Shown: positions 4,014 to 41,804 of the stretch, in pieces
How positions within the stretch are numbered: position 1 is the stretch's first letter
How the letters are laid out: each line of letters opens with the position of its first letter
Assembly: GCF_028807635.1 (NCBI RefSeq)
Contig: NZ_JARBAX010000001.1
Coordinates: forward strand, 3,955,501-4,019,500
DNA: 64,000 bases
Source of the DNA: Streptomyces spiramyceticus
GTDB lineage: Bacteria > Actinomycetota > Actinomycetes > Streptomycetales > Streptomycetaceae
Direction of reading: 5' to 3'
The notes under the pieces: generated by a model
The model's database searches: none
What the model saw: the letters and a program-made list of their open reading frames with translations, nothing else
What the model was told of the DNA's origin: nothing
Translations under genes and position numbers: made by a program

Positions 4014-5711
4014 ATGACCACCGAAGGCAACGGACGCCTGATCGCCGGGCGTTATCGGCTCGGCGTGCGGCTCGGTCGTGGCGGCATGGGGACGGTGTGG
4101 CGGGCCACCGACGAGCTGCTCGGCCGACAGGTCGCCGTCAAGGAACTCAATGTCGACATCGGCGCGCACGAGGCAGGCCTGCCTGCCGCCGATGACGTGC
4201 GACCGTGGCGCGAACGCGTACTGCGCGAGGCCAGGACCGTGGCTCAGCTGGTCCACCCCAATGTGATCGTCGTGCACGATGTCGTCGACGACCAGGACAC
4301 CAGGCTCTCCTACATCATCATGGAGCTGATCGACGGCGAATCGCTCGCCGACCGGGTCGCGACGAGCGGTCCCGTCAACACCCGCGAGGCGGCCCGGATC
4401 GGGCTCGCGCTGCTCGGGGCGCTGCGTACGGCCCATGAACACGGTGTACTCCACCGCGACATCAAGCCCGCCAACGTCCTGCTGGAAGCGGACAGCGGAC
4501 GCGTCGTACTCACCGACTTCGGCATCGCGCGGCTCTCCGGAGCCACGACGCTCACCGACTCCGGATCCTTCGTCGGCTCCCCCGAGTACACGGCGCCGGA
4601 GCGCATGGAGGGCGTCGGCGCGGGTCCCGCGTCCGATCTGTGGTCGCTCGGTGTGCTGCTCTGTACGGCGCTGAGCGGCGAATCGCCGTTCCACCGCGAT
4701 TCGTTGGGCGGTGTGCTCAACGCCGTCGTGAACGACGAGATCCGGCCGCCGGCCGCGGCCGGTCCGCTGCTGCCCGTCGTACGCGGCCTGCTGGAGCGGG
4801 ATCCGGAGCGCAGGCTCGGCGTGGAGGAGGCGGAGCGGCTACTGGTCGCGCACCTGGCGGCCGGCGTGACGCCGGAGGCGGCGGCTCAGGCGCCGCCCTA
4901 TTCGCCCACGCAACGGGACGTACCGCTCACCGCGCCGCCGCCCACGGCTGTCCCGGTCCTCGTTCCTGTCCCCGGCCCCGCCCTTGCGGCCGCCGAGCAG
5001 GCGCGGCCACGGGTCGGCCGGATCCGGAGGGCGCTTGTCGCGGGCGCGCTGGTTGCCGCGATGGCGGGGGCGGGGGCGGCGACCGCGATGCTGTTCCTGG
5101 GTGACGGCGCCGGCGGGGAGGGCGCGGGTGGGTCGAACGGCGAGTCCGGCGGACGTACGGACGCTGCTTCTACGCCGCCCACCCCTCCCACCCCTCCCAC
5201 CCGTACCGTCACCTCGACTGCTCCGAGCAGGTCATCGGTCCCGACCGCATCGGTCACGCCCTCCTTCACGCCGCCCGCCGGGTACCGGAGGGTGAGCGAT
5301 CCGGCGGGCTTCTCGCTCGCCGTCCCCGAGGGGTACAACCGGTCGACCGACGACAAGCGGGTCTTCTACATCTCGCCGGACCAGCAGATCAGGATCGGCG
5401 TACGGCAGCAGGCTCCAGTGTCGAGCGGACCGCTGGGCGCGATGCGGCTGTCGCACGCGAACGGGCCCGACACGAACCCCGGTTACCGCGACGGCAAGGT
5501 CACGCCGACCACCTACAACGGACTGACCGCCGCGCTCTGGGAGTTCACGTGGGACGGCTTCGATCCGGAGGACGAGGACCGGCACACGTACGACCTGTGC
5601 TGGGAGGAGGGCGGGCTGATGTACGACGTGTGGGTGTCGGCACCGGTCGGCCGCCAGGACGACGCGAAACGCCACTTCGACACGGCGCTGGATTCATTCA
5701 CCCGCCGGTAG
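4014..5711 (+). CDS. Transmembrane Ser/Thr protein kinase (PknB-type)
   Basis: 565 residues, ATG start 22 bp after the pseudokinase. All kinase motifs are intact: glycine loop LGRGGMGTVW (20-29), VAVK lysine K43, HRDIKPANVLL with catalytic Asp149, DFG Asp168, and TAPERMEG for the APE motif. A Pro-rich linker leads to a transmembrane helix near residues 340-365. A Ser/Thr/Pro stalk and an outer domain of about 150 residues (from GYRRVSDPAGFSLAVPEGY) follow. The outer domain resembles those of the two proteins upstream and has no PASTA repeats, so the ligand is unlikely to be muropeptide bound through PASTA domains. It is presumably the only catalytically competent kinase of this cluster and may signal together with the adjacent pseudokinase. 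Confidence 0.93.
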   Translation: MTTEGNGRLIAGRYRLGVRLGRGGMGTVWRATDELLGRQVAVKELNVDIGAHEAGLPAADDVRPWRERVLREARTVAQLVHPNVIVVHDVVDDQDTRLSYIIMELIDGESLADRVATSGPVNTREAARIGLALLGALRTAHEHGVLHRDIKPANVLLEADSGRVVLTDFGIARLSGATTLTDSGSFVGSPEYTAPERMEGVGAGPASDLWSLGVLLCTALSGESPFHRDSLGGVLNAVVNDEIRPPAAAGPLLPVVRGLLERDPERRLGVEEAERLLVAHLAAGVTPEAAAQAPPYSPTQRDVPLTAPPPTAVPVLVPVPGPALAAAEQARPRVGRIRRALVAGALVAAMAGAGAATAMLFLGDGAGGEGAGGSNGESGGRTDAASTPPTPPTPPTRTVTSTAPSRSSVPTASVTPSFTPPAGYRRVSDPAGFSLAVPEGYNRSTDDKRVFYISPDQQIRIGVRQQAPVSSGPLGAMRLSHANGPDTNPGYRDGKVTPTTYNGLTAALWEFTWDGFDPEDEDRHTYDLCWEEGGLMYDVWVSAPVGRQDDAKRHFDTALDSFTRR

Positions 5712-33181: not shown

Positions 33182-35029
33182 TCACCGCGGGAAGGGGCGG
33201 GGCGGGGTAGCTCCGCTTCCCGCCACGGGCTGCGGCGTCCCGTGCAGCTCCGCGAGCATCGCCGCCCTGAAGCGCAACGTGCCGACCAGCCGCTGGAACG
33301 CTTCCGACCAGTACCCACCGGCCCCGGGCGACGCGTCCTCCTGCTCGTCCGGCGTCGTCGTGAGTATTTCGAGGCGGCCCGCTTCGCCGGGGTCCAGGCA
33401 GCGCTCGGCCAGGCCCATGACCCCGCTGAAGCTCCACGGGTAACTCCCGGCGTCCCGCGCGATGTCGAGCGCGTCGACCACCGAACGGCCGAGCGGCTCC
33501 GCCCAGGGCACGGTGCAGACCCCGAGCAGCTGGAAGGCCTCGGAAAGGCCGTGCGCCGCGATGAACGCCGCCACCCACTCCGCCCGCTCCCCCTCGGGCA
33601 GCGTCGCCAGCAACTTCGAGCGCTCCGCGAGCGATGACGTGCCGGGACCGGTGTCCGGGGGTGTGGAGGGTGCGCCGAGCAGCGCCCGGGACCAGGCGGC
33701 GTCCCGCTGGCGCACCGCCGCCCGGCACCAGGCGGCGTGCAGCTCCTCCCGCCAGCCGTCGGCCACCGGCAGGGCGACGATCTCCTGCGGCGTACGGCCG
33801 CCGAGCCGGTGCGTCCACGCGGACAGCGGAGCCGACTCCACCAACTGGCCCAGCCACCATGATCGTTCGCCCCGCCCGGCCGGGGGCTTCGGCACGACGC
33901 CGTCGCGCTGCATGTCCGCATCGCATTCGTGCGGCGCCTCCACGGCGATGCGCTCGCCGCCCCTCATGCGGTCGGAGCGGTCCAGGCTGACGCACGTGGT
34001 GGCACGGGCAGCCATCCGGCCGGCCAGGGCCGAGCCGGGCAGGGCGGAGAGCAGTTCGGCGGCGGTGGAGCGCACATTGCGGCTGCGGTCGGACAGCGCC
34101 TGTTCCAGGAACGGCTCGTCCGCGTCGCAGAGGCCGGTGCGCAGCGAGTCGAGGAACATCAGGCGGTCCTCGGCCCGCTCGGTGGGCCACGTCGTGGCGA
34201 GCAGCGCGAGCGCGGCGCCCGATTCGTGCGCCCGTACGGCGGCGAGGAGGCCGACGCGCTCCGCGAACAGGCCCTCCTCCCACAGACGTCGTACGGCGGC
34301 CGCGTCTTGGGGGTCAGGCAGTGAGGCGCCGCCCGACGCACCGCGCAGGGCGAACCGCCAGTCGGCATTGAGCCCGGCCAGCCACAGTCCGCGCGGCCCG
34401 GCGAAGGTCAGGGCGTGCGGCCGCAGGTCCGTACGGGCGCGGGCGGCGTCCAGCAGTGCGGGCAGCAGGGCCGGTGGTGCCTGATGGCGGCACCGGTTGG
34501 CAGCGGCGAGCCACTGAGGGAGCAGCTCGGTGAGGTCGGGCGTCGTGCCACGACGCCCTCCGGCGCCGGCGGGCGACGCCGAACGGCCGGCCAGCAGCTG
34601 GGCGAGGCGGCGCCGGGCGGCCGGGGGCAGCTCGGGACGCGGATCGTGGGGCGCGGGCTCGGGGCGCGCGGCGGCGGGCGCGGGGAGCAGACCGGCCCTG
34701 CGCCGTACGGTCTGGTGCGCGGCGGCATCCAGCAGCGCGACCGGTGCTTCCTTGCCGGGGGCGGCGGCGGGCGGCGTCCGTCGGTCGGTGCCGAGCAGGG
34801 CCACGGTGACGAGCTCCTCCCACGCAGTAGTTTCCCAGGCGCCGGGGGCGGTGGCTGGGGCGTCAGCGGCGGTGGTGCCGGCGCTGGCGGTGCCCGCGGT
34901 TGTGGTGAGTGCGGTGGCGGTGCCTGCCGTGGCGGTGCGTGCAGCGGTGGTGGTGGCGCCTGCGGTAGTAGTGCCTGCCGTGGTGGTGCCTGCGGCGGTA
35001 GTGGCTGTCGTGCTCGTGGTGCTGGTCAT
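33182..35029 (-). CDS. DUF5691-family protein of the MoxR-VWA-SWIM locus
   Basis: 615 residues. Residues 2-65 are almost only Thr and Ala (TTTAGTTTAGATTTAART), then ATAPGAWETTAWEELVTVAL begins the conserved part (LLGTDRRTPP). The remainder is alpha-helical and Leu/Ala-rich, with HEAT-like pairs (DRLMFLDSLRTGLCDADEPF, LEQALSDRSRNVRSTAAELL). It ends EAFQRLVGTLRFRAAMLAEL. No catalytic motif is seen. The start is ATG 35029 with GGAGG, 17 bp downstream of the SWIM gene, clearly one operon. It lies beside the divergent MoxR-DUF5682-VWA operon, and such genes accompany each other, so it is likely a helical scaffold or substrate adaptor. The Thr/Ala extension is unusual and repeat-encoded. Confidence 0.82.
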   Translation of the reverse strand: MTSTTSTTATTAAGTTTAGTTTAGATTTAARTATAGTATALTTTAGTASAGTTAADAPATAPGAWETTAWEELVTVALLGTDRRTPPAAAPGKEAPVALLDAAAHQTVRRRAGLLPAPAAARPEPAPHDPRPELPPAARRRLAQLLAGRSASPAGAGGRRGTTPDLTELLPQWLAAANRCRHQAPPALLPALLDAARARTDLRPHALTFAGPRGLWLAGLNADWRFALRGASGGASLPDPQDAAAVRRLWEEGLFAERVGLLAAVRAHESGAALALLATTWPTERAEDRLMFLDSLRTGLCDADEPFLEQALSDRSRNVRSTAAELLSALPGSALAGRMAARATTCVSLDRSDRMRGGERIAVEAPHECDADMQRDGVVPKPPAGRGERSWWLGQLVESAPLSAWTHRLGGRTPQEIVALPVADGWREELHAAWCRAAVRQRDAAWSRALLGAPSTPPDTGPGTSSLAERSKLLATLPEGERAEWVAAFIAAHGLSEAFQLLGVCTVPWAEPLGRSVVDALDIARDAGSYPWSFSGVMGLAERCLDPGEAGRLEILTTTPDEQEDASPGAGGYWSEAFQRLVGTLRFRAAMLAELHGTPQPVAGSGATPPRPFPR

Positions 35030-35046
35030 CGGGGCCCTCCGTACGG

Positions 35047-36426
35047 TCAGGTGTCGATGAGCGGGACTGTTTCCGCCGAGCCTTCGGGCCAGGCCGTCAG
35101 TGGGGTGAAGCCGCGGTGGCCGCACTCGCCGAAGACCGTGACCGGGCCGCCGCCGGACAGGGCGGTGAGCTTCCACAGCCCGGGCCGGGACAGTGCCCTG
35201 GGGTCCACGGGCAGCGCCGCTCCTCCCCCAGAGCCTTCGGCCAGTTGCCAGCCGTCGCCGGACGGGACCGGTATGACGTCGCTCAGAGTCACCGGCCAGG
35301 CCTCCAGCCAGGGATCGTCCCTCAACGCCCTCCCGTAGGCGCTGAGGGCTTCGGCCGTGCCCCGGCCGGGCGGTGGCGCGTCGATTGCGACCGGGGCGCC
35401 GAACCGCTCACCGACGTCGGCCCGGAGCTGGCCCGCGCCGGGGTAGTAGGTGAGCTCGGTGTCGAGCATCAGGCCCACGGGCAGGGCGATTTCGGGTGCG
35501 CGGCCCGCGGCGCCGAAAGACAGCACCAGCGCCGTACGCCCCGATTCCTTGCCGTACAGCCATATGCGGCGCGTGACGAGCTTTCCGTCCGGGGTGTCGT
35601 ACTGCGCCAGCACCAGCCAGCGGTCCCGCACCGGCGGGCCCGCTGCGGGTGCGGTGAGGCCGACGCGCGTCCGCACGGTCGCGGCCAGCGGCTCCGGCAG
35701 CCGGTCGCGGCCCAGCCAGGCCACGTCCAGCAGGTGCAACATCGCGCACTCCTCCAGCAGCCGCACCGGCCAGCCCGGTCCCGACGCCGGTATCGCACCC
35801 AAATCCCGTACCCGAGCGGCCAGTCCTGGTGCCTGTGCATCGACCATGCGGGCGGCCGTCTCCTCCCACATCGCGTACCCCGTCTGCTCGGCGGCGGCGA
35901 GACCGCCGCGCAGCAGGTCGGTCAGTCGTTGCTCCAGCTCTGTGGCCCCCATGGTGATCCGCTCGGCCCGGCGCTCGGCCCTGCGCCTGGCCGCCTCCGG
36001 GTCGGCCGCCCCGCCGGATGTCCCCTCGCCTTCCCCGGACTTCGCGTCCGGCGAACCCGCCTTGCGCCCGGCCTTCTCGCTGCGCGCAGCCAGCCATTCA
36101 CGGGCCCAGTCGGGCACCTCCGAATCCCGCACGGTCGGATCGTCCGCAGCCCACAGCAGCAGCAGCCCCAGCGCGTGCTTGCACGGGAACTTCCGGCTCG
36201 GGCAACTGCACTTGTACGCCGGGCTGCCGCCCGCCGTATCGACCACCGTCCGATAGGGCTTGCTGCCGCTGCCCTTGCAGAGCCCCCAGACGGCTCCTGA
36301 ACCGCTGCTCCCCGCCTCCGACCACGACCCGGCCGTGCCGAGCCTGCTTCCCGTCTTGCGTGACGCATCGTCAGGAGCCAAAGCCAGCACCTGTTCCGCA
36401 GTCCAGCGCACCCCCTGCTGATTCAT
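35047..36426 (-). CDS. SWIM zinc-finger protein of the MoxR-VWA locus
   Basis: 459 residues from ATG 36426 (MNQQGVRWTAEQVLALAPDD). A SWIM zinc finger C-x-C-x6-C-x-H is seen as Cys73, Cys75, Cys82, His84 in YKCSCPSRKFPCKHALGLLL. A basic/acidic linker (about 110-150) and a region of about 300 residues without named motifs follow, ending near FGECGHRGFTPLTAWPEGSA. SWIM fingers bind DNA or proteins. E. coli YehQ is a SWIM protein in a comparable gene set. Operon partner: DUF5691, 17 bp downstream. The divergent side holds MoxR, DUF5682 and VWA genes, with a lipoprotein gene between. Confidence 0.85.
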   Translation of the reverse strand: MNQQGVRWTAEQVLALAPDDASRKTGSRLGTAGSWSEAGSSGSGAVWGLCKGSGSKPYRTVVDTAGGSPAYKCSCPSRKFPCKHALGLLLLWAADDPTVRDSEVPDWAREWLAARSEKAGRKAGSPDAKSGEGEGTSGGAADPEAARRRAERRAERITMGATELEQRLTDLLRGGLAAAEQTGYAMWEETAARMVDAQAPGLAARVRDLGAIPASGPGWPVRLLEECAMLHLLDVAWLGRDRLPEPLAATVRTRVGLTAPAAGPPVRDRWLVLAQYDTPDGKLVTRRIWLYGKESGRTALVLSFGAAGRAPEIALPVGLMLDTELTYYPGAGQLRADVGERFGAPVAIDAPPPGRGTAEALSAYGRALRDDPWLEAWPVTLSDVIPVPSGDGWQLAEGSGGGAALPVDPRALSRPGLWKLTALSGGGPVTVFGECGHRGFTPLTAWPEGSAETVPLIDT

Positions 36427-36571
36427 GGGAAAGACGCTACGGGCCACCACTGACAATGGGCTCCCACCTGCGGTTTCGCCGGGTGTAGGCGGCCGGAGTC
36501 GGCGTATCATGACTGCACTTCGCCCCCTTGACGGGCGCGAGGTCCTGAAGCTGAAAACCGGGGGGTCCCTC

Positions 36572-36976
36572 ATGAACCGCATCGTCCGCGCAGCCGTCTG
36601 CGCCACCGCCGTCACCGGCCTCGCTCTCGGCCTGGGCGCCTGCGCCACGACCGTCGACGAGGTCGACAAGGCGGTCAACGAGACGTACGAAGTCACGTAC
36701 GAGGTCACGGGCAAGAGCGTCGAATCCATCGAGTACACGGGCGGCGAGGGCACGGCCATGAACCCGAAGATGGAGTCGGCCAAGAAGCCCACGCTGCCGT
36801 GGAAGAAGACGGTCACGCTCCGCGGCATCATGGCGCCCGCCGTCTCGCCGATCAGCATCGACGGCTCGGCCGATCTGACCTGCAAGGTCATCTACAAGGG
36901 CGAGACGATCAAGGAAGCGAAGGGCGAGAAGGCCATGGTCGGTGGCTGCGTCGCGGTCTCGCCGATCGCGAAGTAA
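36572..36976 (+). CDS. MmpS-like lipoprotein
   Basis: 134 residues. Signal peptide with lipobox LGLGAC (Cys24 lipidated), then DEVDKAVNETYEVTYEVTGK, SVESIEYTGGEGTAMN, LPWKKTVTLRGIMAPAVSP and DLTCKVIYKGETIKEAKGEK, ending GGCVAVSPIAK. This is the beta-sandwich of MmpS-type proteins, which in mycobacteria assist MmpL exporters. No MmpL gene is visible here. The gene stands between the two arms of the SWIM/MoxR locus, 103 bp upstream of moxR on the same strand, and could be read into it. Whether this is functional or accidental is unclear. Confidence 0.75.
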   Translation: MNRIVRAAVCATAVTGLALGLGACATTVDEVDKAVNETYEVTYEVTGKSVESIEYTGGEGTAMNPKMESAKKPTLPWKKTVTLRGIMAPAVSPISIDGSADLTCKVIYKGETIKEAKGEKAMVGGCVAVSPIAK

Positions 36977-37078
36977 CCTCCGGGCTCTGCCATTTGGGCC
37001 CTGACCTGCGATGACGGTCGATTGTCAGTGGCGTGGTGCACGGTGGATCCCACATCCGGGAAATCTGGAGGGGGATCC

Positions 37079-38227
37079 ATGACCGTGCCCGAAATCAAGC
37101 CCGTCGACGGTGTCGCCAGTACCGGCAGCGCCGCCGGTGCGGACAGCGTCGAGGCCCTGCGGCCGCACGCCGAGGACGCGTTCGCCGACGAGCTCAAGGC
37201 GCTGGCCGCGGCCGACGACCGGGCGCGGCCCGCCAGATGGCAGTTGTCGCCGTGGGCCGTCGCCACGTACCTGCTCGGCGGGACACTGACCGACGGCACG
37301 GTGATCACGCCCAAGTACGTGGGCCCGCGCCGGATCGTCGAAGTCGCCGTCACCACGCTCGCCACCGACCGGGCCCTGCTGCTGCTCGGCGTCCCCGGCA
37401 CCGCGAAGACCTGGGTCTCCGAGCACCTCGCCGCCGCCGTCAGCGGCGACTCCACGCTGCTCGTGCAGGGCACCGCCGGTACGCCCGAGGAAGCCATTCG
37501 CTACGGCTGGAACTACGCCCGGCTGCTCGCGCACGGACCGAGCCGCGACGCCCTCGTGCCCAGCCCCGTCATGCGGGCCATGGCCGACGGCATGACAGCG
37601 CGGGTCGAAGAGCTCACCCGCATCCCGGCCGACGTGCAGGACACCCTGATCACGATCTTGTCGGAAAAGACGCTGCCCATCCCCGAGTTGGGGCAGGAGC
37701 AGCAGGCAGTACGCGGTTTCAATCTCATCGCCACCGCCAATGACCGCGACCGGGGGGTCAACGACCTCTCCAGCGCTCTGCGCCGGCGCTTCAACACGGT
37801 CGTCCTGCCGCTGCCCGCGACGGCCGACGCGGAGGTCGACATCGTGTCGCGCCGCGTCGACCAGATCGGGCGCTCCCTCGATCTGCCGGCCGCGCCCGAC
37901 GGCTTCGACGAGATCCGGCGTGTGGTCACCGTCTTCCGCGAGCTGCGGGACGGCGTCACGGCCGACGGGCGTACGAAGGTCAAGTCCCCTTCGGGCACGC
38001 TTTCCACGGCGGAGGCGATCTCCGTCGTCACCGGCGGCCTCGCCCTCGCCGCGCACTTCGGGGACGGCGTCCTGCGCTCCGGCGACGTCGCGGCCGGGAT
38101 TCTTGGTGCGGTGGTGCGCGACCCGGCGGCGGACCGCGTCATCTGGCAGGAGTACCTGGAGACGGTCGTCCGCGAGCGTGACGGCTGGAAGGACTTCTAC
38201 CGCGCCTGCCGGGAGGTCTCGGGATGA
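37079..38227 (+). CDS. MoxR-type AAA+ ATPase (YehL-like)
   Basis: 382 residues from ATG 37079 with GGAGGGG upstream. Walker A GVPGTAKT at 104-111. The Walker B region reads ARVEELTRIPADVQDTLITI, with Glu-Glu in place of the usual Asp-Glu. Sensor 1 is LIATANDRDRGVNDLSSALR and the arginine-finger region RRRFNTVVLPLP. This variant resembles E. coli YehL rather than RavA. MoxR ATPases work with VWA proteins to remodel or insert cofactors into protein complexes. The DUF5682 gene overlaps its stop by 4 bp (ATGA), and VWA follows in the same way, so the three are strictly coupled. Confidence 0.92.
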   Translation: MTVPEIKPVDGVASTGSAAGADSVEALRPHAEDAFADELKALAAADDRARPARWQLSPWAVATYLLGGTLTDGTVITPKYVGPRRIVEVAVTTLATDRALLLLGVPGTAKTWVSEHLAAAVSGDSTLLVQGTAGTPEEAIRYGWNYARLLAHGPSRDALVPSPVMRAMADGMTARVEELTRIPADVQDTLITILSEKTLPIPELGQEQQAVRGFNLIATANDRDRGVNDLSSALRRRFNTVVLPLPATADAEVDIVSRRVDQIGRSLDLPAAPDGFDEIRRVVTVFRELRDGVTADGRTKVKSPSGTLSTAEAISVVTGGLALAAHFGDGVLRSGDVAAGILGAVVRDPAADRVIWQEYLETVVRERDGWKDFYRACREVSG

Positions 38228-40614
38228 CGGGTGGCCCTCTGCTGCTGGGCGTGCGCCACCACGGGCCCGGTTCGGCCCGCGCGGTGCGGGGCGCGCTCGA
38301 CGCGGCGCGGCCCCGCGCCGTACTGATCGAGGGACCGCCCGAGGGCGACGCGCTGCTGGCGCTGGCGGCGGACGATGCGATGCGCCCGCCCGTGGCCCTG
38401 CTGGCGCATGTCACGGACGACCCGGGGCGGGCCGCGTTCTGGCCGCTGGCCGAGTTCTCCCCGGAGTGGGTCGCGATCCGCTGGGCGCTGGGGCACGACG
38501 TCCCGGTGCGTTTCATGGACCTTCCGGCGGCGCACTCGCTGGCGCTCGCGGAGGAGACGGGGGACTCGGCCGAAGCCGACGCCGGCTCGGGGGAGGATCC
38601 GGCGATCGATCCCCTTGCGGTGCTCGCGGAGGCCGCTGGGTACGACGACCCGGAGCGGTGGTGGGAGGACGTCGTCGAGCACCGCGGGGGCGGCGTGGGA
38701 GGCGGCGATCCGTTCGCGCCCTTCGGTGCGCTCGCCGAGGCCATGGGCGCGCTGCGTGAGATGCACGGCGACGGCGGGCACCCCCGCGACCGTGTGCGCG
38801 AGGCGTACATGCGCCTCCAACTCCGCTCCGCACGCAGGGAGTACGGCGCCGACATCGCGGTCGTCTGCGGTGCCTGGCACGTGCCCGCGCTCGGTGACAA
38901 GGTCGCCACCGCCACGGCGGACCGGGCGATGCTCAAGGGCCTGCCCAAGGTCAAGGCCGAGATGACCTGGGTGCCCTGGACCCACCGCAGGCTCGCCCGA
39001 CGCAGCGGATACGGCGCGGGCATCGACTCGCCCGGCTGGTACGGGCACCTCTTCGGCGCTCCTGACCGGCCCGTCGAGCGCTGGATGACCAAGGTCGCCG
39101 GGCTCCTGCGGGACGAGGACCGGATGGTCTCCTCCGCCCATGTCATCGAAGCCGTCCGGCTCGCCGAAACCCTCGCCGCCATGCGCGGCCGCCCCCTCGC
39201 GGGCCTGACCGAGACGACCGACGCCGTCCGCGCGGTGATGTGCGAGGGCTCCGACGTCCCGCTCGCGCTCGTACGCGACCGGCTCGTCGTGGGAGACGTA
39301 CTCGGCGAGGTCCCGGACGCGGCGCCCGCCGTGCCGTTGCAGCGCGACCTGACCAGGTCGCAGCGCAGCCTGCGACTCAAAGCTGAGGCGCAGGACCGCG
39401 AGTTGGAACTCGACCTGCGCAGGGACACCGACGCGGCCCGCAGCCGACTGCTGCACCGGCTGCGGCTCCTGTCCATCGGCTGGGGCGAGCCCGCGGCGTC
39501 GCGCGGGAGTACGGGTACGTTCCGGGAGAGCTGGCGGCTGCGCTGGGAGCCGGAGCTGTCGGTGCGGGTCGCGGAGGCCGGGGTGTGGGGCACCACCGTG
39601 CTCTCCGCCGCCACTGCCAAGGCCGAAACACAGGCTGCCTCGGCCACAGCACTCGCCGATGTCACCGCTCTCGCCGAGCGGTGCCTCCTGGCCGAACTGC
39701 CCGACGCCCTCCCGGTGGTGATGCGGGCCCTGGCCGACCGCGCCGCGCTGGACGCGGATGTCGGCCACCTCGCCCAGGCGCTGCCCGCCCTCGCCCGGTC
39801 CCTGCGGTACGGCGACGTGCGCGGCACGGACACGGCCGCGCTCGGTGAGGTGGCGGCGGGGCTGGCCGAGCGGATCTGCGTAGGGCTGCCGCCCGCCTGT
39901 ACGGGACTCGACGCGGACGGCGCGGCAGAGATGCGCCGCCATGTCGACGCGGTCCACACAGCGATCGGTCTCCTGGCGGAGACGACGGCGGGCGACGATG
40001 CCGACCTGCGCGGGCGTTGGGCGGGCGTGCTGCGCAAGCTGGCCGCGCGGGAAACCGTGGGCGGGGTGATACGCGGGCGGGCCGTGCGGTTGCTGCTGGA
40101 CGACGGGCGGCTCGGGGAGGACGAAGCAGCGCGCTTCATGGGGCTCGCCCTTTCCCCGGGCACGCTGCCGGCCGACGCCGCGGCTTGGGTCGAGGGCTTC
40201 GTCGGCGGAGCGGCGGGCGGCGGAATGCTCCTCGTGCACGACGAGCGGCTGCTGGGTCTGGTCGACGCCTGGCTCACCGGCGTGTCCGACGACGCCTTCA
40301 TCGACGTACTGCCGCTGCTGCGCCGCACGTTCTCGGCGTACGAGCCGGGAGTACGGCGGACTTTGGGCGAACTGGTCAGACGCGGCCCGTCGGCCGAACG
40401 CCAGGCGAGATCGGAGGCCGGCGCACCCGGTTTCGGCCCGGGGCTCGACGAGGAGCGCGCGGACGCTGTGGTGCCGGTGCTGCGGCTGTTGCTGGGCGAC
40501 ACGGATGGCGAGGGCGAGGTGACGGGCGAGGCGGTGGCGCGCGAGGTGGCGGGCGACGGGGTGAGTGACGTGGTGGATGACCTGGTGGACGACCTGGCGG
40601 GGGAGGCCCGATGA
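38224..40614 (+). CDS. DUF5682-family protein (YehM-like), possible Tiki/TraB-type hydrolase domain
   Basis: 796 residues. N-terminal signatures LLGVRHHGPGS (Arg11-His12-His13), VLIEGPPEGD (36-42) and VVCGAWHVPAL (His219) match in order the G-x2-H, E-G and GxxH motifs of the TraB/ChaN/EreA (Tiki) superfamily. I infer a metal-dependent hydrolase-like head of about 270 residues. The remaining 500 residues are helical and Ala/Leu/Arg-rich with no motif, ending in an acidic Glu/Asp/Val repeat. It corresponds in position to E. coli YehM between an AAA+ and a VWA gene. Start ATG overlaps moxR by 4 bp and its stop overlaps the VWA start by 4 bp. Function untested as far as I know. Confidence 0.8.
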   Translation: MTGGPLLLGVRHHGPGSARAVRGALDAARPRAVLIEGPPEGDALLALAADDAMRPPVALLAHVTDDPGRAAFWPLAEFSPEWVAIRWALGHDVPVRFMDLPAAHSLALAEETGDSAEADAGSGEDPAIDPLAVLAEAAGYDDPERWWEDVVEHRGGGVGGGDPFAPFGALAEAMGALREMHGDGGHPRDRVREAYMRLQLRSARREYGADIAVVCGAWHVPALGDKVATATADRAMLKGLPKVKAEMTWVPWTHRRLARRSGYGAGIDSPGWYGHLFGAPDRPVERWMTKVAGLLRDEDRMVSSAHVIEAVRLAETLAAMRGRPLAGLTETTDAVRAVMCEGSDVPLALVRDRLVVGDVLGEVPDAAPAVPLQRDLTRSQRSLRLKAEAQDRELELDLRRDTDAARSRLLHRLRLLSIGWGEPAASRGSTGTFRESWRLRWEPELSVRVAEAGVWGTTVLSAATAKAETQAASATALADVTALAERCLLAELPDALPVVMRALADRAALDADVGHLAQALPALARSLRYGDVRGTDTAALGEVAAGLAERICVGLPPACTGLDADGAAEMRRHVDAVHTAIGLLAETTAGDDADLRGRWAGVLRKLAARETVGGVIRGRAVRLLLDDGRLGEDEAARFMGLALSPGTLPADAAAWVEGFVGGAAGGGMLLVHDERLLGLVDAWLTGVSDDAFIDVLPLLRRTFSAYEPGVRRTLGELVRRGPSAERQARSEAGAPGFGPGLDEERADAVVPVLRLLLGDTDGEGEVTGEAVAREVAGDGVSDVVDDLVDDLAGEAR

Positions 40615-41804
40615 GCGTGAAGGGCAGGGACGTAGGGGCGGCACCGGCGGATGCGTCGGTGACGTCGGAGCGGCTTCGGCGGTGGCGGCTTGTGTTGGGT
40701 GGCGGGGAGGGGGATGGGACCGGGTGCTCGCTCACCGGGCGGGACAGTTCCATGGACGGAGCGCTCAGTTCGCTCTACGGCGGTGGGCGCGACGCGGGCC
40801 GCAGCCGATCCGCCGGGCTCGGCGCTTCCGCGCCGTCCGTCGCGCGCTGGCTCGGCGACATCCGTACGTACTTCCCCAGCTCCGTCGTCCAGGTCATGCA
40901 GCGCGACGCCATAGAGCGGCTCGGGCTTTCGGCGCTGCTGCTGGAGCCGGAAATGCTGGAAGCCGTCGAGGCCGACGTCCATCTCGTCGGGACGCTGCTC
41001 TCGCTCAACAAGGCGATGCCCGAGACGACCAAGGTGACCGCGCGCGCGGTCGTTCGCAGGGTCGTTGAGGATGTGGAGAAGCGGCTTGCCACCCGTACCA
41101 GGGCCACTCTGACCGGCGCCCTCGACCGCAGTGCCCGCGTCAGCCGCCCCCGGCATCGGGACATCGACTGGGACCGTACGATCCGGGCCAACCTCAAGAA
41201 TTACCTTCCGGAGTACCGGACTGTCGTTCCCGAGCGGCTCGTCGGGTACGGCCGCGCTTCGCAGTCCGTGAAGAAGGACGTCGTCCTGTGCATCGACCAG
41301 TCGGGGTCGATGGCCGCATCCGTCGTCTACGCCTCCGTCTTCGGCGCGGTCCTTGCCTCCATGCGCTCGATCGCCACCCGCCTCGTGGTCTTCGACACGG
41401 CCGTCGTCGATCTCACCGACCAGCTGGACGACCCGGTCGACGTGCTCTTCGGCACACAGCTCGGCGGCGGTACGGACATCAACCGGGCCCTCGCGTACTG
41501 CCAGTCGCAGATCACGCGGCCTGCCGACACCGTCGTCGTGCTGATCAGCGACCTCTACGAGGGCGGGATACGGGACGAGATGCTGAAGCGGGTAGCGGCG
41601 ATGAAGGCGTCGGGAGTGCAGTTCGTCGCGCTGCTCGCGCTCTCCGACGAGGGCGCCCCGGCGTACGACCGTGAGCACGCGGCGGCTCTCGCGGCGCTGG
41701 GCGCACCCGCTTTCGCCTGTACGCCCGACCTCTTTCCGGAGGTGATGGCGGCGGCAATCGAGAAACGACCACTGCCCATACCGGACATGGTGACTCATCA
41801 GTAA
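40611..41804 (+). CDS. VWA-domain protein (YehP-like), partner of MoxR
   Basis: 397 residues. The N-terminal half is basic and helical (SARVSRPRHRDIDWDRTIRA). The C-terminal von Willebrand A domain has a full MIDAS: D229-Q-S231-G-S233 (VLCIDQSGSMAASVVYASVF), Thr288 in LGGGTDINRAL, and Asp in VVLISDLYEGG. No signal peptide or TM, so it is cytoplasmic. In MoxR systems the VWA protein binds the ATPase hexamer and recruits the client. E. coli YehP is the likely counterpart. Start ATG overlaps the DUF5682 stop by 4 bp. It ends the rightward operon. Confidence 0.92.
   Translation: MSVKGRDVGAAPADASVTSERLRRWRLVLGGGEGDGTGCSLTGRDSSMDGALSSLYGGGRDAGRSRSAGLGASAPSVARWLGDIRTYFPSSVVQVMQRDAIERLGLSALLLEPEMLEAVEADVHLVGTLLSLNKAMPETTKVTARAVVRRVVEDVEKRLATRTRATLTGALDRSARVSRPRHRDIDWDRTIRANLKNYLPEYRTVVPERLVGYGRASQSVKKDVVLCIDQSGSMAASVVYASVFGAVLASMRSIATRLVVFDTAVVDLTDQLDDPVDVLFGTQLGGGTDINRALAYCQSQITRPADTVVVLISDLYEGGIRDEMLKRVAAMKASGVQFVALLALSDEGAPAYDREHAAALAALGAPAFACTPDLFPEVMAAAIEKRPLPIPDMVTHQ

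Follow-up and report, generated by a model that had tools for sequence, protein, structure and literature searches.

Two facing RecA-NDp/PafBC-type promoter motifs at a conserved five-gene MoxR-VWA locus in Streptomyces spiramyceticus, a probable counterpart of Deinococcus ddrTUVWX

A 64,000-nucleotide stretch of the Streptomyces spiramyceticus genome (contig NZ_JARBAX010000001.1, positions 3,955,501 to 4,019,500; here called the window) contains five genes arranged in two divergent operons. The rightward operon codes for a MoxR-type AAA+ ATPase, a DUF5682 protein and a CoxE-like VWA protein, and the leftward operon for a SWIM zinc-finger protein and a DUF5691 protein (Table 1). The layout described in a first-pass annotation, with two 4-bp overlaps in the MoxR-DUF5682-VWA series and a 17-bp gap between SWIM and DUF5691, was exact. 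The region between the operons includes two promoter motifs that face the SWIM and MoxR genes. The analyses described below suggest that this unit is probably the Streptomyces counterpart of the Deinococcus ddrTUVWX operon and acts as an ATP-driven machine induced by DNA damage.

Table 1. Genes and promoter motifs of the five-gene unit (positions within the window).
Feature	Position	Strand	Remarks
DUF5691 protein, 615 aa, helical repeats	33182-35029	-	Leftward operon, gene 2; Pfam DUF5691 E 6.3e-175; ddrU counterpart by position
SWIM zinc-finger protein, 459 aa, CSCPSRKFPCKH finger	35047-36426	-	Leftward operon, gene 1; Pfam SWIM E 3.5e-6
RecA-NDp/PafBC-type motif facing SWIM, TTGTCAGTG-N8-TAGCGT	36434-36456	-	7 bases 5' of start codon
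RecA-NDp/PafBC-type motif facing MoxR, TTGTCAGTG-N8-CACGGT	37022-37044	+	34 bases 5' of ATG
MoxR-type AAA+ ATPase, 382 aa	37079-38227	+	Walker A GVPGTAKT, Walker B VEEL; Pfam AAA_5 E 3.1e-36
DUF5682 protein, 796 aa, TraB-like N-terminal alpha/beta domain and C-terminal helical solenoid	38224-40614	+	Pfam E 5.6e-299
VWA (CoxE-like) protein, 397 aa	40611-41804	+	DQSGS and GGGTD retained; Pfam VWA_CoxE E 1.6e-61

The window MoxR has both a Walker A and an acidic Walker B motif, as expected of a MoxR-VWA pair, and the metal-binding site of the VWA protein is intact. The variant Walker B (Asp to Glu) pointed out in the first-pass annotation is real and is a signature of the family, since Glu-Glu was present in all 31 MoxR sequences compared, which represented all types and included E. 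coli YehL. The helical repeats suspected in DUF5691 agree with its AlphaFold model (mean predicted local distance difference test score, 83.6).

The loci taken from the named collection were the best 80 MoxR-bearing ones of at least 590 (79 from Actinomycetota, one from Chloroflexota), and the sample is therefore biased toward close relatives. The five genes were complete in 69 of them, 53 divergent and 16 colinear (SWIM-DUF5691-MoxR-DUF5682-VWA), and 10 of the 11 incomplete loci were truncated by contig ends. The order is divergent in Streptomycetaceae and colinear in other groups. Among 198 Actinomycetota genomes DUF5682 was found in 17 and DUF5691, above the cut-off, in 16; all 16 also carry DUF5682, and the gene set is thus beyond chance. 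Three sub-cut-off DUF5691 matches sit in genomes without DUF5682. The co-occurrence survey proposed in the first-pass annotation therefore showed that the genes travel together as a conserved five-gene unit, which is present in 143 of 150 Streptomyces and has sucC within reach in 53 of the 80 loci. One Streptomyces locus (L099) differs from its relatives in that the 1.4 kb of contig left after DUF5682 shows no VWA gene.

The same gene set was found in four phyla other than Actinomycetota, in Deinococcus taeanensis, Hymenobacter, Rhizobium, Methylosinus and Chloroflexota. The copies from all of these belong, with the window type, to a single 17-row clade of the MoxR tree (support 100/100); E. 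coli YehL, together with Agrobacterium, Iodobacter and some Streptomyces relatives, falls outside it. Some of the genes are fused. SWIM and DUF5691 form one polypeptide in Nocardia testacea and in Hymenobacter, where the finger is retained and identity to the window SWIM is 38%, and DUF5682 is fused to VWA in several Streptomyces. The alignments A1, A4 and A5 were built from selected protein subsets.

The SWIM-MoxR intergenic regions of Streptomycetaceae, 42 short ones of which were aligned, contain two facing copies of ATTGTCAGTG, which we take to be the RecA-NDp/PafBC promoter; the wording of the motif by Gamulin in 2004 was reportedly TTGTCRGTG-N8-TANNNT. In the window the motif facing SWIM keeps TA in its second half, whereas the one facing MoxR has CA instead. 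For SWIM, the ATG located 30 bp from the motif's first base was taken as the start codon. Promoters were counted in 49 of 62 divergent Streptomycetaceae loci, the other 13 being left out because the SWIM call was cut or mis-started. All 49 had at least one copy (43 both, four the MoxR-facing copy alone and two the SWIM-facing copy alone), while the remainder of these loci gave 52 matches in 1.88 million strand bases. The SWIM-side motif was exactly at -29 in 40 of them. Among 16 full colinear actinobacterial loci (L139, a contig without SWIM, was dropped) 14 had the core motif 28-30 bp ahead of the SWIM start, with about 0.003 expected per locus; it was not found in the Chloroflexota locus L143. 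The gap of about 7 bases between the -10 element and the start codon is consistent with leaderless transcripts. Heat-shock and other regulators were rejected for this region, as patterns for HAIR, CIRCE, SigR, SigH/B-like, ClgR, Zur and DtxR had no match in the 49 loci or the window, and an SOS pattern had one SOS-like match only (L126).

A search of the 7.08-Mb source genome with the strict motif returned 32 sites, two of them at this locus, compared to none with a reversed control. Thirty sites could be assigned a locus, and the downstream genes were picked by script, independently of the annotation. Eleven precede DNA-metabolism genes, namely those for DNA polymerase IV (dinB), RarA, an HHH_RecD2 protein, PolA, an AlkZ-like glycosylase, DnaX, rpsF-ssb, an Lhr-type helicase, RecA, a DEAD helicase and topoisomerase IV A; two are the sites of this locus, and the 17 others, of which some are expected by chance, stand before genes for a WGR protein, a HEPN protein, metabolic functions and unknown products. 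The WGR-domain protein has beta-propeller repeats and lies directly after a strict motif (G000:C1:1090900, L225). In relatives a looser pattern occurred 2 to 5 times or more over control; one of them (G500) had 109 matches, many in nearly identical 23-mers scattered along its contig, as though the motif had been amplified with a repeat. The RecA-NDp motif is located 5' of S. coelicolor recA and of an ultraviolet-inducible gene (PMC5087735), and PafBC works via RecA-NDp, with a motif range that extends past mycobacteria (PMC6789036, PMC8223512). Taken together, the motifs make it very probable that the unit is regulated by DNA damage in Actinomycetia.

A unit of this type is already named in Deinococcus, its function unexplained. 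In D. deserti, Deide_18730-18690 is the ddrTUVWX operon, induced by radiation under IrrE/DdrO control, in which a SWIM gene comes first, a MoxR-like ATPase third and a CoxE-like VWA gene last; IrrE-dependent induction by radiation exceeded 10-fold for the SWIM gene and 5-fold for 18720, 18710 and 18690 (PMC5552922, PMC2669436). According to the same reports, a radiation/desiccation response motif (RDRM) lies upstream in D. deserti and likewise in D. gobiensis, D. maricopensis and D. peraridilitoris, and the operon is missing from D. radiodurans and D. geothermalis. DUF5682 proteins were found in D. maricopensis and D. peraridilitoris. The D. taeanensis order is the colinear actinobacterial one, and a 13/15 match to the DdrO consensus (PMC8533742) is located at 4733-4747, 20 bp 5' of SWIM. 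Hymenobacter has a single 13/15 RDRM-like match 189 bp upstream, and no match to LexA/RDRM patterns was found upstream in E. coli, Iodobacter, Agrobacterium, Rhizobium or Methylosinus. At the window locus all five genes lie together and MoxR shares its clade with Deinococcus; order and annotation make ddrTUVWX apparently the nearest known unit, sharing its five genes, their characteristic positions and damage-type control. The SWIM protein is the apparent ddrT counterpart by position and annotation, while Deide_18720 and Deide_18700 would by position be DUF5691 and DUF5682. Unlike ddrTUVWX, the Streptomycetaceae unit is split into two divergent operons, and its regulator differs (RecA-NDp/PafBC motif in Streptomyces, RDRM/DdrO in Deinococcus). 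Two unrelated damage regulators, PafBC in Actinomycetia and DdrO in Deinococcus, thus seem to govern one unit.

The first-pass annotation had matched the set to E. coli yehL, yehM, yehP and yehQ. This was correct for three proteins (identity of MoxR to YehL 40%, DUF5682 to YehM 26% and VWA to YehP 36%), but the comparison of the window SWIM with YehQ was not significant (best E 0.33) and DUF5691 had no significant pairwise match to YehQ or YehI; direct yeh orthology of all genes was therefore rejected. E. coli yehI-L-M-P-Q has, like the window unit, a MoxR with Glu-Glu Walker B, the same invariant DUF5682 residues, a CoxE-like VWA and a SWIM protein. It differs in having DUF4132 (YehI) instead of DUF5691, a SWIM protein that is not recognisably the same, a MoxR of a separate clade and no LexA box with the patterns tried. 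These comparisons and the MoxR tree make yehLMP of E. coli a sister branch and not the ortholog. The yeh unit was present in 5162 of 5426 E. coli. In the sister type the protein that replaces DUF5691, DUF4132, carries a WGR domain in Agrobacterium, and one Streptomyces locus (L063) is a yeh-type copy with yehI-, L-, M-, P- and Q-like genes. Paralogous operons with MoxR, DUF5682 and VWA, as many as three per genome, also occur in Streptomyces (types B, C and D; L060-L066, L203, L249-L252); several have a DUF5682-VWA fusion and, as partner, DUF4132 or another very large protein. The motif precedes five of five type C and the one type B operon; for type D it is clear in L064, and in L065 it is in the same place, where the first open reading frame (ORF) is ambiguous.

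The RHH, EGPP and AWHVP motifs that had led to the placement of DUF5682 in the Tiki/TraB superfamily are present and conserved. Residues H12, H13, E36, D99, R192, E193 and H219 were invariant in 48 of 48 sequences and include the His-Glu pair of Tiki/TraB proteins (H12, H13, E36, H219). The top structural match of the N-terminal domain was a probable TraB-family structure. As in the Tiki/TraB/erythromycin-esterase superfamily, there is an apparent alpha/beta core with conserved histidines after strand 1 and after the last strand, a Glu after strand 2 and an R-x-x-x-M; unlike in that superfamily, the first Glu of the 2His/2Glu set is missing, a long C-terminal solenoid is present and there is no profile similarity. 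A sequence search of the PDB returned no relative for DUF5682 or DUF5691, and the TraB family was not found among 61 Chloroflexota genomes. DUF5682 is probably Tiki/TraB-like, and fold and conservation tip the balance slightly toward a hydrolase.

In the mechanism we propose, DNA damage would lead PafBC to activate both divergent operons through the facing motifs. From homology and by analogy with NorQ/NorD, the MoxR ring and its VWA partner very likely constitute a motor; MoxR-VWA motors remodel their targets by pulling on a linker (PMC13036017). SWIM and DUF5691, considered a pair because they are sometimes fused into a single polypeptide, may jointly be an adaptor that binds a client or nucleic acid. 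The motor would feed or open the client for DUF5682, whose TraB-like domain, with its conserved His/Glu/Asp/Arg pocket, would most likely cleave a protein or peptide bond. The likeliest clients would be proteins that have stalled on DNA, are linked to it or were damaged along with it, and we advance a DNA-associated client only tentatively. A bolder version, in our estimate improbable, is that DUF5682 and the motor would be a damage-induced bacterial analogue of the SPRTN/Wss1-p97 route by which eukaryotes deal with DNA-protein crosslinks, and would strip proteins from damaged DNA and cleave them; the role of damage-site adaptor that SWIM-DUF5691 (or WGR-DUF4132 in sister types) would then have is as improbable. 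If true, Streptomyces types A to D, each preceded by a DNA-damage motif, and E. coli yehLMPQ would be a family of such machines.

Several points weigh against the damage-machine reading. No strict damage-motif match was found upstream in eight more distant Actinomycetota (L051-L058; L058 has a near-match). Across 11 Chloroflexota loci the only matches were a LexA-like one and two in poor positions, and with the patterns tried there was none in Rhizobium, Methylosinus, Agrobacterium or E. coli. An initial search described in PMC9380542 suggested that S. venezuelae does not conserve the PafBC motif known from M. smegmatis, and we infer damage induction in Streptomyces from the motifs. In Deinococcus, the available text of the D. 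deserti reports does not name Deide_18700, at the DUF5682 position, among the induced genes (PMC5552922, PMC2669436), and D. radiodurans is radiation-resistant despite having no operon (PMC5552922). The TraB match of DUF5682 has a middling Z and is to an unnamed chain. The Ere-type 2His/2Glu set (PMC6254334) is incomplete, since the Glu that should stand two positions ahead of the first His is missing (V10 and R11 in the window; column 11 is R, C or A), and a profile comparison with Ere-like proteins and YbaP gave no match (0.2%).

Other explanations assign the motor a different task. MoxR and VWA could be a maturation chaperone that inserts metal into, or activates, DUF5682 as its client, with the damage link reflecting only when it is needed. 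NorQ/NorD and CoxD/CoxE pairs activate an adjacently encoded metalloenzyme (PMC13036017, PMC7159879), the MoxR-DUF5682-VWA order with its 4-bp overlaps casts DUF5682 as client, the MoxR profile matched NorQ, among others, in the PDB, and a chaperone pair was suggested for 18710 and 18690 in the D. deserti genome paper (PMC2669436). However, SWIM, DUF5691 and the large helical half of DUF5682 are left unexplained and the metal site is hypothetical, and we consider this fairly unlikely as a full account; such maturation can also serve as the first step of the damage machine. The window unit resembles NorQ/NorD, CoxD/CoxE and RavA/ViaA in combining a motor with a VWA partner, with weak matches to ViaA and NorQ profiles, and differs from them in its Glu-Glu Walker B, DUF5682 as third component and the added SWIM-repeat pair. 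General protein quality control with no tie to DNA, the motif being a broader stress signal, would agree with the chaperone-like roles of MoxR proteins (PMC3893208) and with motif-linked genes such as those for an unrelated L-2-hydroxyglutarate oxidase and a sigma factor. It is hardly probable, as the motif is densest on DNA-metabolism genes and Deinococcus has the same unit under the control of an unrelated regulator, DdrO (PMC5552922).

A damage-triggered conflict system against phages or other invaders is suggested by the known MoxR-VWA ternary conflict systems (PMC7159879), by WYL-type regulators that govern phage defence too (PMC9122589), and by some copies being plasmid-borne, one of them adjoining a restriction-modification cluster. 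The window unit shares MoxR, VWA and a third component with ternary systems (VMAP, iSTAND, FtsH, beta-propeller), but its MoxR scored 23.7 bits with bpMoxR (cut-off, 27) and the Pfam scan of the window proteins showed no conflict third component, VMAP and iSTAND included, for which reasons membership in that family was rejected. PADLOC had no model for four of the proteins and weak ones only for MoxR, and two narrow scans of viral contigs returned no viral relative; a defence island or phage origin is unsupported by these searches. The unit is also near-universal, in a single place and vertical in Streptomyces and E. coli. A conflict role is thus very unlikely, and a mobile defence role is not supported. 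The ATP-driven quality-control or defence device envisaged in the first-pass annotation is thus partly supported, as a machine but not as defence.

Searches of the open-licence literature found no functional paper for DUF5682/DUF5691, yehL/M/P/Q or DUF4132 with MoxR, in agreement with the earlier statement that the biological role is undefined. The actinobacterial damage promoters, a literature link between the Deinococcus and actinobacterial units and the DUF5682 active-site set were likewise not met in the open-licence papers searched. Nearly all Streptomyces keep the unit, and nearly all E. coli keep its sister, yehLMPQ. The apparent ddrTUVWX counterpart, the damage-type promoters and the machine-like proteins make a DNA-damage role testable, and with two apparent damage regulators on one unit, what was a list of DUFs becomes a candidate DNA-damage machine that can be tested. 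The ddrTUVWX operon is thereby tied to widely used laboratory organisms, and DUF5682 gains a likely active site to mutate.

Small ORFs accompany the unit in some genomes. An extra one lies between MoxR and DUF5682 in D. taeanensis (L199:8756-8992, 78 aa) and in Hymenobacter (L200:8362-8973), with no Pfam match. In the window, a small lipoprotein-like ORF at 36572-36976 (+), with no NCBIfam match, lies between the two facing motifs; since the SWIM-MoxR gap measures 136-278 bp in 42 of 49 relatives, it is an apparent insertion that stands outside the unit.

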